Shown piece by piece: positions 5,477 through 35,584 of a stretch of 51,717 nucleotides of DNA. Made by a program: the position numbers and the translations under genes. Within the stretch, counting starts at the first letter, position 1, and each line of letters opens with the position of its first letter. The notes beneath the pieces are model-generated. The model did not search any database, was not told the origin of the DNA, and saw only the letters and a program-made list of their open reading frames with translations. The stretch is from assembly GCA_028141885.1 (NCBI GenBank), contig JAOIQU010000007.1, forward strand, positions 1 to 51,717. The letters are read 5' to 3'. Source of the DNA: Flavobacteriales bacterium (GTDB taxonomy: Bacteria; Bacteroidota; Bacteroidia; Flavobacteriales; UA16).

Positions 5477-8400
5477 ATGTTGCGTTTTTGGTCTTTGTTG
5501 TTGGCTCTTGTTACGCCTGCTGCCCTCTGGTCTCAGGTGGTCATCAATGAATTCTCTTGCAGTAACTACACTTTGGGCGTAGGTGGAAACAATGAAGATT
5601 TTGTGGAATTCTACAACCCCACTGGGGCGGATGTGGATTTGGGAGGATACTTTTTGTCGGACAACCTCAACAACTTGGACAAATTTGAGATCCCGGCAGG
5701 CACGACGGTTCCCGCTGGAGGACATCTCATTGTGATTTGTTCCGGAGAAGGGGAGCTGGTGACCAATTTGTATGTGGGCGGTTTCCTGAACACCAATTTC
5801 AAGATCAACCAATGTCAAGGGGAGTCCCTGGTGTTTGCGGACCCTGGCTTGAACGTGCTCGAGTCGTACACGTATGAATCGGACATTTCCACAACCCAGG
5901 CAGACCACAGCTGGGCGCGAAGTGCAGACGGTGCTGCAGATTGGGAGGTGTGCGTGGATCCTTCTCCGGGGGCGGCAAATGGCGCAGATCCGTTCGACAT
6001 GTATACGGGGTACGCCCCGACACCTGTGTTTGACGTGGAGTCTGGTTATCACGCTGGGGCGCTTTCAATCAACCTGTCCGTGCCCGGCGGATATGACCTC
6101 CACTACACCCTCGACGGTTCGACCCCCACGGAAGCGAGCCCCTTGTACACCGGCCCCATCAACATCACGCAAACCACCGTGGTGAGGGCTGTGGCGTTTG
6201 ACCCCGATGACGATGTGCCGCCAAGCCAAGCCCCGAGTTTCATTGCCACCAACACCTATTTCCTCGGTGCAGATGCACACACCATTCCCGTGGTCTCGGT
6301 GAGCGGAGATGACATCGGGGATGGAGAGTGGTTTGGCGATGAAGGTGCGCACATTGAATTCTTTCACGCAGATGGTACGTTTTGGGTGGAGTCCACGGGT
6401 GACAGCAACGAGCATGGAAACGACAGCAATGCCTATGGACAGCGAGGATTTGACATCATCACTCGCGACCAGATGGGCTACGACCACGCGCTCGAAGCCG
6501 AGCTCTTTCACCTCAAGGATCGCGATGCCTACCAGCGCTTGATTTTCAAGGCTGCAGCCAACGACAATTATCCTTTTGAGCCCGGAGCCCACATTCGCGA
6601 TGCGTACGTCCACACCTTGAGCCATTTGGCGGAGTTGCACCTCGATGAGCGGACCAACGAGAGTTGCATCGTGTACCTCAATGGTCAGTATTGGGGCGTG
6701 TACGAGTACCGCGAAAAGGTGGACGATTTGGATTTCACAGAGGAGTACTACGACCAGCCGCGCCATTTTGTGGACTTCATCAAAACGTGGGGAGGCACCT
6801 GGGAGGAATACGGCACGGAGGACGACTGGGTGGATTTGGTCGCATTCTGCACGAGTCAGGACATGACGGATGCCGCGAACTACGACTACGTGAGCTCGCA
6901 GCTCAATCCTCTGTCGCTCATCGACTATTTCATTCTGAACAGCTACATCGTGTCCGCAGACTGGCTCGATTGGAACACGGCATGGTGGCGGGGGAGGCAT
7001 CCAGATGGCGATGCCAAACGATGGAGGTACGCCTTGTGGGACATGGATGCAAGTTTTGGCCACTACATCAACTACACAGGTGTTCCCGACACTGGGCCTG
7101 GCGCCGATCCATGCAATCCTGACGATATGGGGAATGTGGGCGGACAAGGCCACATCCCGGTGTTGAATGCGTTGTTTGAGAATGAAACGTTCAACAACAC
7201 CTACTTGAACCGTTGGGCGGATTTGGGCAACACTGCGTTCTCGTGCCAAAACATGCATGCCGTGCTCGACAGCATGGTGGCTGTCATTGAGCCTGAAATG
7301 GAGCGTCAATTTGGCCGATGGGGAGGCAACTTGGCAGGATGGCAATTCGAATTGCAGGAATTGCGCGACTTCATTGACGAGCGTTGTGAGGACGAAGTGG
7401 TGGGGGGCATTGAAGATTGCTATGACGTGACGTCCGTCAACTTGACCATCGACATCTTGGGCCTTGGAGAAGTGGAAATCAACACGGTGGATTACACGCC
7501 GGACATGGTCCCCGCCACAACATGGTATTTCGCTGACGTCCCCATCACGCTGGAAGCCGAAGAGGACTACGGCGTAGGTTTCCTCTATTGGGAAGTCGTC
7601 TCGGGTGACGTGTCGATTGCAGACTTGAGCAATCCGATCCTGCCGCTGACGTTGACAGGCGATGCCCACTTGATTGCGCACTTTGGCTTGCCTGTGCCGC
7701 CTGAAGAATTGACCTTCAATGTTGTGCCATCGGGCGCTGGAGATATTTTGTTCGATGGCACGGCCTTCTCGAGCTACCCAACCACCGAGCTGATAGAGGT
7801 GGGCAGTCACAACCTTCAAGCTGAACCCCTGCCATGGTGGGCATTCACGCACTGGACGCTGGATGGCAACGTGGTAACTCCCGATGAGACGAGCTCACTC
7901 GTGCAGTTGGACGTGTTCGAACCTGGCGTGGTGACCGCACATTTTGAGGCCATTCCTCACACCAACTTGACGGTGCTGGTGTCGCCCCCTGAGGCGGGGC
8001 AAGTCCGGGTTTGGGATTTGGCCTTGGTGGACGACGTTTGGAACACGGCATTTCAGCCAGTGGGCGTCACCACGTTCGATGCGTTGCCCGAGCAAGAGTG
8101 GCAGTTCAGCCATTGGGAGGTTTCCTACGCAGAGCCTCAGCCTACAAAGCGCTCCAACCCCATGTCTATGACTTTGGAAGACGTTCCTGTGGAGGTGGTC
8201 ATCGCGCACTTTGAGCCCGTTCAATTCAACCTGTTCATTCCCAATGCGTTCACGCCTGACAACGATGGGCTGAATGACGGGTTCTTGCCGTTGGGCAGTG
8301 GGTATGTGGCCGAATCGTATTCATTCATGGTGTTCAACCGATGGGGCAATTTGGTCTTCAAATCGGACAACCCTGATGAAGCGTGGATCGGCCAAAACAA

Positions 8401-32863: not shown

Positions 32864-34468
32864 ATGAACGCATTCAACCCAATCTCCAAGGAACAGCAAC
32901 GCGCATGGCGCGCCCGGTTGTTTTTTCATCTCGACGGTCTCGCCTTGAGCGGCGTCGTGCCGGTGCTCGACATGAGTGGCGTGTTGGAGGAGGCGTTGCA
33001 GACGGGAGGAGACGTCGATGAAATGGCCTCGGTTTTTGGGGCCAATCCGGGTTACTTGAATGTGGGGCTTCGGATGTTGTGTTCACAGGGCGTTCTGGAC
33101 GCGCATTTGGGTGAAGACAAAATCACCTACATCCCAGTCAAATCGTCCGACGTTGCCCATTGGGCCCAACAACGTCACCTCTACGAACTCGGCCGAACGT
33201 GGATGGAACACAGCGTCGGGATGTGGAACCGGCCCCAAGAACCCCTAGGGGTCGAAGCCCTTCAGGCCATGCGTGCGCTCTTGGACGCAGTGGCCAACCT
33301 CGGTGTCGACATGCACGCCGTTGACGTTGGTGGTACGTTGGAGTCGAGGCTTGCGCTTCACTTGGAGGGGGCTTTGGTGGCGCCATGGATGGTCATGTTG
33401 GGGACGTCGTTTGGAACGGAGGCCATGACGTCCTGGGACGACGTGGCCCAAGCCACGGCCAAGTTGCACCCTGAATTGCAGGAAGCTTGGGGCGAAGTCG
33501 CCGTGGGCTTGGGTTGGGCTGAGACGGATGCCGGCAGTTTCTATCTGCAACGAGCCGCTGCGTATGGCGTCACGACGTCGTACACCCAAACGTTTTTGTG
33601 GGCCAAGGAGCTTTTGCTGGGCGAAGGCAGCTGGTTGTGGCGCACCGAACCTGGAGAAGCGGAGATCCATGTGGATCGCACCCTCAACGTCTGGGGCTCT
33701 GGCGGTGCGCACCAAGCTTACTTCGGTCACCTCGACACGATTGTCAAGGAGGTGTTCGATCGACCGTTGGCAGAGCAGCCGCTGGGGTTGTGCGACATGG
33801 GATGTGGAAACGGCGCGTTGCTTTTGCACCTGCAGGCCTTCATCCGCGACCACACCCTGAGGGGACAGCACCTGGACACGCACCCACTGATGCTCGTGGG
33901 TGCGGACTTCAACCAAGAAGCCCTTGTGGCGACCGCCGATCACTTTCGCCAAAAGGAAGTGAAGGGACATTTTCTGTGGGGGGACATTGGTGATCCTGAT
34001 CAATTGGCCTTGGACTTGTTTGAGTTGCACGGGGTGCGTCTTGGCGATTTGCTCAACGTCCGTTCATTCCTCGACCACAATCGGGTCTACAACGTCCCAA
34101 TCATGGATCGTCCTGACGACCCCATGTCGTCAGGTGCGTTTGCGTTCCGAGGACAGCGTTTGAAACTGCGCAACGTCGAGCAGAGTTTGAAGGAACATTT
34201 GTTGAAGTGGTCTCCTTACGTGGCTGCGCACGGACTGTTGATGATTGAGTTGCACACGGTTTCGCCTTTGGACGCCCGTACCATGCAGGGCAAGTTGCCG
34301 GCCACGGCCTACGACGCCACCCACGGATTTTCCGACCAATACATCGTGGAGATTCCTGTTTTTGACGCCTTGGCCAAAGAGGCAGGGTTGTCCGTGGCGT
34401 CCACAAGCAGCAGGACGTTTCCTTCGTCGCTTCCCGCCACTGTGAGCTTGCGCTTTTTCAAAGCCTGA
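32864..34468 (+). CDS. Class I SAM-dependent methyltransferase, AprA-like architecture
   Basis: 534 residues. The N-terminal part (about 1-130) looks like a winged-helix dimerisation region (FFHLDGLALSGVVPVLDM). The SAM-binding Rossmann domain starts near 300 with LGLCDMGCGNGALLLHLQAF (motif I) and LVGADFNQEALVATADHF. DLLNVRSFLDHNRVY and LMIELHTVSPLDA follow. The long middle segment has no clear counterpart in small methyltransferases. Related proteins occur in cyanobacterial and myxobacterial polyketide systems, from memory. No polyketide genes are nearby here. The substrate is unknown. The gene begins 17 bases after the C1 peptidase. Confidence 0.75.
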   Translation: MNAFNPISKEQQRAWRARLFFHLDGLALSGVVPVLDMSGVLEEALQTGGDVDEMASVFGANPGYLNVGLRMLCSQGVLDAHLGEDKITYIPVKSSDVAHWAQQRHLYELGRTWMEHSVGMWNRPQEPLGVEALQAMRALLDAVANLGVDMHAVDVGGTLESRLALHLEGALVAPWMVMLGTSFGTEAMTSWDDVAQATAKLHPELQEAWGEVAVGLGWAETDAGSFYLQRAAAYGVTTSYTQTFLWAKELLLGEGSWLWRTEPGEAEIHVDRTLNVWGSGGAHQAYFGHLDTIVKEVFDRPLAEQPLGLCDMGCGNGALLLHLQAFIRDHTLRGQHLDTHPLMLVGADFNQEALVATADHFRQKEVKGHFLWGDIGDPDQLALDLFELHGVRLGDLLNVRSFLDHNRVYNVPIMDRPDDPMSSGAFAFRGQRLKLRNVEQSLKEHLLKWSPYVAAHGLLMIELHTVSPLDARTMQGKLPATAYDATHGFSDQYIVEIPVFDALAKEAGLSVASTSSRTFPSSLPATVSLRFFKA

Positions 34469-34493
34469 AGGCCATGCGGCATCTTCCTTGATG

Positions 34494-34501
34494 TATTTTT
34501 G
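34494..34501 (+). promoter_or_regulatory. -7 box TATTTTTG for the structured RNA
   Basis: An exact TAnnTTTG match in the gene-free region. With the four-base spacing seen elsewhere, transcription would start at 34506, the first base of a hairpin. No -33 TTTG is visible at the standard distance, so the promoter could be weak or factor-dependent. Confidence 0.5.
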
Positions 34502-34505
34502 CAGC

Positions 34506-35240
34506 CGAATCTGGCCGGCAGATTTCGCTGGTGTCGATATCCACAGTTGTTTGTAAGTGAAGTGGATACAGTGTTGATTTCCCTGAGCGATTTTTTTTTG
34601 GATCGAGCCATACATGTCCCTTCTTTGCTTCAGCAAGGAGGTCAAACGGTGGTCGCGAAATCGAAGTCGGCGCGCAAGCGACGGTGATGACAACACGACA
34701 CCAGCCCCTCAGTCCAACTGAGCAGGTTGACCACGCGAAAGGAAGGTTTTTCGAAACGTCCTGACGCGAACTCTGAGGAGGGCCTTGTGGCCGGAGCGCA
34801 AAGGTGCAACGGCGGGTTGGAAAGTTTGAAGCTTCGGCGACAGCTTCCGATCCATCAGCGAAGGACGAGAGTCCGGCGTTGAAAAACCCAAAGGAAAGGG
34901 AACCATCGCGCCAACTTCGTGTTGCGGCGAGCATCTCACCCACTGTGGCCTGCCACAGTGCCTCAGCACCCGAAAGGGAGCAGGGGGAGCTTGAGTGTGG
35001 CAACACACTCCCGCGAGGTGAGCATGAACAACTCGTTTCGAGAGGAGGCTTTTGTCTGCATCTCGGGCGTTGGGAAACTTTCTGGAGGACCAGCGGAAGT
35101 GCGAAAGCACAGACGGTTTTGGGGGTCAAAGCCCAGAATGCCAATCCGACACCACCCGTAGGATTGGCCTGGAGGATCCGCATCGGCAACGGGCATCTTG
35201 GTGGCAACACCAAAAAACCCAGCCGGTGCGGATTTCTTAT
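34506..35240 (+). ncRNA. Candidate long structured noncoding RNA (about 735 nt)
   Basis: No convincing CDS occupies this stretch, yet it is packed with inverted repeats. Five hairpins are closed by GNRA tetraloops on the plus strand: GGAC-GAGA-GTCC (34863), CCC-GAAA-GGG (34969), GAGTGTG-GCAA-CACACTC (34993), GTGC-GAAA-GCAC (35099) and TTGGTG-GCAA-CACCAA (35198). Other stems are at 34508, 34538, 34708, 34828, 34941 (8 bp) and 35140 (8 bp). A 12 bp stem (35176-35187 with 35222-35233, one G-U) encloses the last tetraloop and could end the molecule. Landmarks of RNase P RNA, tmRNA and SRP RNA were looked for and not seen. Read on the minus strand the loops are not GNRA, so plus is the likely sense. 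The ends are estimates. Confidence 0.6.
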
Positions 35241-35265
35241 TTGCGCGAGTTTTTCAGAACGGGGG

Positions 35266-35296
35266 TTTGGTGGGGAAGAAACCCTGTCTATCTTTG
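35266..35296 (+). promoter_or_regulatory. Consensus promoter of tRNA-Arg
   Basis: TTTG (35266-35269), a 19-base spacer and TATCTTTG (35289-35296) match the Bacteroidota -33/-7 consensus. The tRNA begins 33 bases downstream. Confidence 0.8.
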
Positions 35297-35329
35297 CCCC
35301 CCGATTGGCCCGCGTGGTCGGTCGACAAC

Positions 35330-35403
35330 GGCTCTGTAGCTCAACTGGATAGAGCATCGCACTACGGATGCGAAGGTTTGGGGTTCGAATCCCTACAGGG
35401 TCA
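35330..35403 (+). tRNA. tRNA-Arg (anticodon ACG)
   Basis: A full cloverleaf of 74 bases. The acceptor pairs GGCTCTG with CAGGGTC (with G-U pairs). The D arm is GCTC/GAGC and the anticodon stem TCGCA/TGCGA with loop CTACGGA gives ACG. The T arm is TGGGG/CCCTA with loop TTCGAAT. The discriminator is A. CCA is not encoded. A consensus promoter lies 33 bases upstream and a terminator starts 8 bases downstream, so the tRNA is a single-gene unit. Confidence 0.95.
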
Positions 35404-35410
35404 CGAAAGA

Positions 35411-35441
35411 AGCCTGGTTGCACATGCAACCGGGCTTTTTT
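35411..35441 (+). terminator. Intrinsic terminator after tRNA-Arg
   Basis: AGCCTGGTTGC and GCAACCGGGCT form an 11 bp stem (one T-G pair) with loop acat, followed by a T run. It ends the tRNA transcript. Confidence 0.88.
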
Positions 35442-35584
35442 GTGCCCGCCAAGTCTGAGTTCACTCAAGCGAAGGCAAGGCACAAACAATGCCCGAGAAC
35501 TGCGCAGCAGTTCCAGGCTTCATGCTCGGGTACACCCCCCCGCCCCGGGGATCACATTGCAATCCCTGCTGAGCTGTTGTTTCG

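Follow-up and report, generated by a model that had tools for sequence, protein, structure and literature searches.

A large RNA with an elaborate fold is encoded between a methyltransferase gene and tRNA-Arg(ACG) on a 51,717-nt contig from a marine Flavobacteriales bacterium (JAOIQU010000007.1; this entire stretch is called the window below). An earlier note on this DNA had read positions 34506 to 35240 as a new large structured RNA, and our comparative analysis supports that reading, none of the Rfam, covariation and open-frame checks having refuted it. We regard it as nearly certain that this is a real, undescribed RNA class in the sense of a conserved structure, and as highly probable that the RNA is transcribed independently and acts in trans. 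Its conserved fold, unmatched in Rfam, probably defines a new class among large bacterial RNAs, where "new" means outside every known RNA family by model search and "large ornate RNA" serves as a loose description. To our knowledge, elaborate conserved folds have been described for few bacterial RNAs longer than 500 nt. This gene is chromosomal and usually present once per genome, has a conserved element of regulatory appearance and varies in size among related genomes, and so offers a good object for work on large-RNA function.

Anatomy of the RNA gene

The RNA gene and its surroundings in the window comprise the following features.

32864..34468, plus strand: AprA-like methyltransferase gene, the upstream neighbour, outside the RNA gene (Pfam PF23525, PF23526 and PF23589)
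34494..34501, plus strand: TATTTTTG, a Bacteroidetes-type -7 box (TAnnTTTG) and putative second promoter
34537..34581, plus strand: array of three head-to-tail TGTKRAT boxes, core ACAGTTGT in the window, aligned in 34 loci
34537-34545, minus sense of the array: ATATCCACA, opposite in sense to the boxes
34594..34627, plus strand: promoter-like TTTTTTGG, then TTCTTTG (34621-34627), a putative promoter; RNA start deduced near 34630
34630..35245, plus strand: RNA body of about 0.6 kb, from homology and covariation, both ends deduced
34887..35088, plus strand: central branched domain with long-range helices 34887-34909/35067-35088 and 34928-34940/35017-35035
34942-34959, 34961-34986 (GAAA loop) and 34993-35010 (GCAA loop), plus strand: central-domain hairpins enclosed by the long-range helices
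35090..35172, plus strand: 3' junction (helices 15-19), closed by 35090-35093 with 35169-35172
35094-35115 (GAAA loop), 35116-35139 and 35140-35168, plus strand: hairpins of the 3' junction
35174..35245, plus strand: terminator-like element of terminal helix 35174-35187/35222-35235, inner hairpin 35197-35215 (GCAA loop) and CTTATTT
35289-35296, plus strand: TATCTTTG, the promoter-like TAnnTTTG box of tRNA-Arg itself, found by eye
35330..35404, plus strand: tRNA-Arg(ACG), the downstream neighbour, outside the RNA gene (ARAGORN and Rfam)

The start of the RNA had been placed at 34506, next to a box ending at 34501. Relatives moved that boundary: they share an upstream element at 34537-34581, and the conserved RNA begins at about 34620-34630. 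The box itself is present and may act as a second promoter. A TAnnTTTG sequence, the consensus as given in PMC9723704, precedes the array in all six sequences of one alignment. The arrangement of TTTTTTGG followed by TTCTTTG recurs across groups when sequences are compared by eye; a promoter scan with an E. coli-type model found none. Across relatives the RNA measures 0.6-1.1 kb.

At the 3' end, the 12-pair terminal stem (35176-35187 with 35222-35233, one pair being G-U) was recovered as described previously, and the consensus lengthens it to 14 pairs (35174-35187 with 35222-35235). All 14 pairs form in 6/6 sequences and 11 are invariant; the helix contributes little covariation because it barely varies. 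Together with the T-rich tail, this helix would constitute a transcription terminator. It is absent from the list of a simple terminator scan, which considered loops of 3-8 only. In G078 and G079 the letters of the terminal helix differ yet pair, GAACCGCGTCG with CGGCGCGGTT, as judged by eye. A CCTGARAATGG motif occurs in 27 of 31 loci of other groups and in none of the eight group-1 loci, and group 1, including the window, has therefore diverged there. Two size differences were also observed in the 5' part of the RNA: in L003 the variable region is enlarged by an insert made up of several imperfect tandem copies (about 5900-6300 of that locus), and L018 has an extra GAAAGG-rich duplication (about 2870-2900) relative to its close relatives L016 and L017.

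Folding and covariation

The five GNRA loops that the earlier note had emphasized (34867, 34972, 35000, 35103 and 35204) all lie where it put them. Those at 34867, 35000, 35103 and 35204 are closed by 4, 7, 4 and 6 Watson-Crick pairs, giving four GNRA hairpins with at least four such pairs against a mean of 0.18 in 500 dinucleotide shuffles, none of which reaches four; the GAAA at 34972 is closed by three C-G pairs followed by a mismatch and is outside this count. The weight placed on these loops was not borne out, as they are not themselves a conserved feature: some relatives have other letters in place of the 35000 loop, whereas all six aligned sequences of the window's group retain GCAA at 35204. 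Stems of 7-8 bp are indeed present, but their number is by itself mildly unusual, because 14 of 500 shuffles equal the three hairpins observed with at least seven Watson-Crick pairs and loops of 3-8 (0.39 expected). The stretch as a whole folds well, with z = -5.56 on the plus strand and -2.89 on the minus strand (20 shuffles each).

Evolutionary evidence for the fold came from three separate alignments, A3 (10 sequences), A4 (6, including the window) and A5 (11), in all of which covarying pairs proved abundant. Consensus pairs changed on both sides numbered 92/183 in A3, 63/134 in A4 and 46/127 in A5 (a recount of A4, in which ties fell differently, gave 62). No shuffle reached any of five measures (0/500, 0/500 and 0/200, respectively), and sliding the partners left 19-27 such pairs in A3 and 13-26 in A4. 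The structure was derived on the same alignments as were counted, a circularity addressed by a refolding null and a coding control. Alignments with shuffled columns that were refolded, 15 for each, yielded means of 16.7, 14.0 and 7.5 with maxima of 24, 19 and 13. For the flanking methyltransferase coding sequence, no clear covariation excess over shuffles was found: 22 two-sided pairs versus a shuffled mean of 18.2 (maximum 22) with four sequences, and 15 versus 13.7 (maximum 17) with ten. Within the RNA, the three central hairpin helices (11-13) show two-sided changes in 6/7, 7/10 and 8/9 pairs.

Sequences were selected as follows. A4 excludes L002, whose 3' end is like that of another clade, and L004, which aligned poorly; A3 excludes L132 and L149; and none of the three alignments includes L121-L123, L130, L135 or L146-L149. 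An alignment termed A1 held 13 of the 16 sequences then known, excluding L002, L015 and L017. The pair count of a further alignment, A2, was set aside, 16 of its 32 rows being antisense matches of the near-palindromic terminal helix; there, further pair types were equalled in 397/500 shuffles and another measure in 16/500.

Alignment energies gave plus-strand z values of -16.3 (group 1), -11.8 (group 2) and -17.7 (group 3b), with -12.5, -10.4 and -18.0 on the minus strand (20 shuffles); in group 3b the minus strand is thus slightly better. Two-sided pairs also appear on the minus strand (95, 50 and 35 in the three alignments), as is to be expected of the complement of a covarying RNA. We assign the plus orientation because every one of the three groups has the lower energy on the plus strand, and because of the upstream signals and the T-rich 3' end.

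A DnaA-box-like array precedes the RNA

About 90 nt ahead of the shared start region, the core ACAATTGT or a near variant was found in 34 of 37 loci; in the other three (L107, L124 and L137) the array lies beyond the available sequence or was not found. Its boxes have an invariant GT and spacings of 13 and 11. Of 114 family genomes, 43 have the array pattern (42 of them a single time) and one has the reversed pattern; among 17 array places inspected, at least three (G025, G028 and G114) are probably chance occurrences, since they fall within or ahead of genes with no relation to the RNA.

The array resembles a DnaA-box array that is conserved in place. A perfect consensus box (TTATCCACA/TGTGGATAA) is present in 8/34 arrays and a box with at most one mismatch in 21/34, counts that are not independent because the arrays are related by descent. 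Random segments matched in 2/934 cases, and 50,033 surrounding bases held no perfect box. Since the ACAATTGT core and the box have letters in common, a stricter control was also made at other ACAATTGT places, where a box within one mismatch occurred in 3/54 and a perfect one in 2/54. The resemblance was judged against the E. coli consensus. Upstream of dnaA itself, the array was absent in all 12 dnaA loci inspected, two of which have a bare ACAATTGT within 1.2 kb.

Such boxes raise the possibility that the DNA is the functional element, as an origin or a DnaA-titrating or -reactivating site, with the RNA as a by-product or primer. The excess of perfect and near-perfect boxes over both controls and the usual occurrence of one array per genome would suit this explanation. 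However, strand skew keeps its sign across the array in the window, in G095 and in G068 (a short form); it is noisy at G009. Skew does not mark a replication origin at the array in the window, G068 or G095, and a regulatory site is therefore more likely than an origin. The strong selection on RNA pairs is, moreover, unlike that expected of a by-product, and we consider functional DNA an improbable account of the locus.

The datA and DARS loci of E. coli, which respectively titrate and reactivate DnaA, are clusters of DnaA boxes outside the origin. The flavobacterial array shares this grouping of boxes away from the origin; it differs in being followed by a large conserved RNA, and its boxes are DnaA-like by sequence.

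Distribution and changing neighbours

Homologous loci were collected with the neighbouring methyltransferase as query, taking the best 80 of 422 loci. ARAGORN located tRNA-Arg(ACG) in 18 of the 28 best loci; a long spacer precedes it in 14 of these 18, and about 95 nt separate gene and tRNA in the other four (L006-L009). In L003 the RNA is kept and the contig end precedes the tRNA. A covariance model of the 3' domain, R1, was built from 13 sequences (111 positions, 22 pairs), namely the window and 12 loci, which match by construction. Among the first loci R1 matched the window and 15 others on the plus strand, 13 of these 16 being training sequences.

At E <= 0.001, R1 detected the RNA in 37 of the family's 114 genomes, adding 22 to the previously known loci, and a search of 299 genomes of the order, made with the stricter filters of large searches, returned the same 37 and no others. 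The 77 family genomes that were negative are mostly incomplete or more distant. A single match was found in 35 of the 37; G003 has two, at contig ends, and the second match in G009 is weak and antisense (E = 8e-4). In G078, G079, G084, G095 and G100 the RNA was recognised by eye behind the array, bringing the total to about 42/114. As far as searched, the giant form is confined to one Flavobacteriales family.

The earlier note had tied the RNA to a position upstream of tRNA-Arg, which turned out not to define the gene, as other lineages place it beside other genes. Depending on lineage, the neighbours are (i) a methyltransferase or peptidase-like gene with tRNA-Arg, (ii) a histidine phosphatase, (iii) GH3 and DUF4920 proteins, or (iv) T9SS proteins with PKD and CHU_C domains. 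The four loci L006-L009 have no RNA beside tRNA-Arg, and two of the genomes concerned, G007 and G008, carry it elsewhere. Because its neighbours change with lineage, the RNA gene is independent of its surroundings.

This distribution bears directly on whether the RNA could be a cis-acting leader or attenuator of tRNA-Arg or another neighbour, as might be suggested by the window and 14/28 best loci, in which it directly precedes a tRNA-Arg(ACG) of like orientation. The tRNA, however, has its own TAnnTTTG box past the T-rich end of the RNA, and 13 of 15 loci scanned from other lineages have no tRNA within 1-2 kb (L107, one of the two tRNA-bearing loci, has it downstream as in the window). A leader function is accordingly very unlikely.

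Some records in this collection deserve comment. From the terminal helix onward, L002 (PKDW01000180.1) resembles another clade (L011/L013 type) and is probably an assembly chimera at this near-invariant helix. Although the record titles name a Euryarchaeota archaeon for L013 and Chryseobacterium gleum for L024, the methyltransferase groups both with Flavobacteriales MAGs, and they are probably mislabelled or mixed bins.

Searches for known RNA families

A cmscan of the window against all 4227 families of Rfam 15 returned a tRNA as the sole match, with no family at cut-off within the RNA. At E <= 10, the only hit inside the RNA in 34440-35480 was CyVA-1 on the minus strand (14.3 bits versus a cut-off of 41.4). 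Sixteen homologous loci, 15 with the window's layout, gave tRNAs only, and 25 further loci (7+12+6, homologous or array-bearing) gave nothing in the RNA at E <= 1; a sub-threshold human lncRNA match there lies on the opposite strand, outside the RNA. Landmarks of RNase P RNA and tmRNA had not been seen in the earlier inspection, and model searches agree. The RNase P RNA model (RF00010) has no match in the window at the gathering cut-off or at E <= 10, and neither the covariance model (RF00023) nor ARAGORN finds a tmRNA there. Both RNAs were located elsewhere, above cut-off, in related genomes (14/20 for RNase P RNA and 8/15 for tmRNA), the remainder being drafts with no match above cut-off. 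Group I and group II intron models likewise had no match in the window, nor did 6S-Flavo (RF01685), whose model matched 0/15 relatives elsewhere in the genome and no control either.

Could the RNA instead be a divergent member of GOLLD, ROOL, OLE, RNase P RNA, tmRNA or the group II introns? It falls in the same size class, and GOLLD has a conserved 3' and a variable 5' region and often lies near tRNAs (PMC12286853). Against this, no match near a cut-off was seen with any of the 4227 Rfam families in the window and 41 other loci, GOLLD, ROOL and OLE included, and RNase P RNA and tmRNA sit separately in relatives. Such a kinship is thus hardly probable.

Comparison with these RNAs remains instructive. 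GOLLD is also a large ornate RNA that sometimes adjoins tRNA genes and occurs in marine samples (PMC12286853). The flavobacterial RNA differs from it in having no match to the GOLLD model, in residing in bacterial chromosomes rather than in phages or prophages, and in its conserved upstream array. ROOL is similar in size (a 659-nt example is given in PMC12286853) and elaborately folded, but the flavobacterial RNA again has no match to its model, and ROOL has been described from phages and prophages. OLE, at about 600 nt, is chromosomal with an elaborate conserved fold; it has been described mostly from Bacillota, and the flavobacterial RNA has neither a match to its model nor a constant partner gene. 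All three form homo-oligomeric complexes, and their functions are little understood (PMC12286853). Nearer in taxonomy, Rfp18 and other independent RNAs of Flavobacterium psychrophilum are stand-alone, structured RNAs from Flavobacteriales, but their median length is 176 bp (PMC9723704); they were compared with the giant RNA by description.

A phage element was rejected, no similar DNA being present in the phage collection. Two 18-19-letter scans of IMG/VR returned three stretches each, none with an R1 match, and these were therefore read as chance. No matching RNA was found in Rfam 15 or in the open-access papers searched. An earlier description elsewhere is possible, because some printed candidate RNAs never entered Rfam; some motifs of PMC2864571 have no Rfam number in its table.

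Coding potential

No open frame is conserved across groups. In group 1, minus-strand frames of 51 and 56 aa remain open in 5/5 other sequences; in group 3b, a 42-aa minus-strand frame does so in 8/9. Plus-strand frames of the AT-rich group reach at most 49 aa, and its best-kept frame, on the minus strand and 43 aa long, is open in 6/10. In the window, a 343-aa minus-strand frame (34458-35489) overlaps the RNA stretch, and no Pfam family was detected in the four open frames tested between the methyltransferase gene and tRNA-Arg. The short kept-open frames, and long ones in GC-rich groups, would suit a coding sequence, intact or decayed, that folds well by chance owing to its GC-rich letters. 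This account can safely be discarded given that no Pfam family was found, that the 343-aa frame runs across the tRNA gene, that the AT-rich group has no long plus-strand frame and that coding controls show no clear excess of covariation.

Proposed expression and role

The large RNA probably has a promoter of its own, from which transcription would begin some 90 nt past the DnaA-box-like array, the array serving its expression; the transcript would end at the terminator-like helix. Action in trans, by the folded RNA alone or within an RNA-protein particle, is most likely, rather than a leader function for a neighbouring gene, and the RNA is probably particle-forming or protein-binding. A structural role is favoured over sequence-specific antisense pairing because many helices keep their shape while their letters change; between a structural or particle role and catalysis we see the balance as about even. 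Judging from the box sequences, control of the gene by DnaA is conceivable, and we advance it tentatively. An extended and more doubtful proposal is that synthesis is tied to replication, with array-bound DnaA switching the gene and the RNA particle carrying a signal of replication or growth state.

Shorter RNA-like sequences behind the array

In five of the 17 inspected array places (L140-L144, from G046, G053, G054, G056 and G057), the array is followed by about 0.3 kb of conserved sequence before a QueE-like gene (in L141 the best family is QueE at 133 bits, under the cut-off of 200). This short sequence, possibly a reduced version of the giant RNA, carries the block TATTTTGGTTGATATGG; in some loci AATCCACGCGGG and CCCGTGTGGATT form a stem at its end.

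Outside the family, the strict array pattern occurs in 11 of 285 genomes. Ten such loci were read: four are RNA-like, three lie before dnaB and three have nothing RNA-like. The RNA-like loci (L179, L180, L184 and L186, from G158, G129, G162 and G214) have the array, then 0.4-0.45 kb in which hairpins abound and which a strong hairpin with a T-run closes in the manner of a terminator, and no Rfam match. We tentatively treat the short forms as the same gene as the giant RNA. If the replication-linked proposal is true, the array before short forms and dnaB would mark an old regulatory RNA gene, whose length of about 0.3-0.45 kb would have increased in a single family to over 1 kb.

A very similar array lies just upstream of a gene read as dnaB, the replicative helicase, in L181, L182 and L183 (G188, G149 and G127), which belong to other families of the order; in L182 dnaB was confirmed by TIGR00665 (536 bits versus a cut-off of 385). 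This placement fits a replication-linked regulator. In a further locus, L185, the array letters are identical to those of L184.
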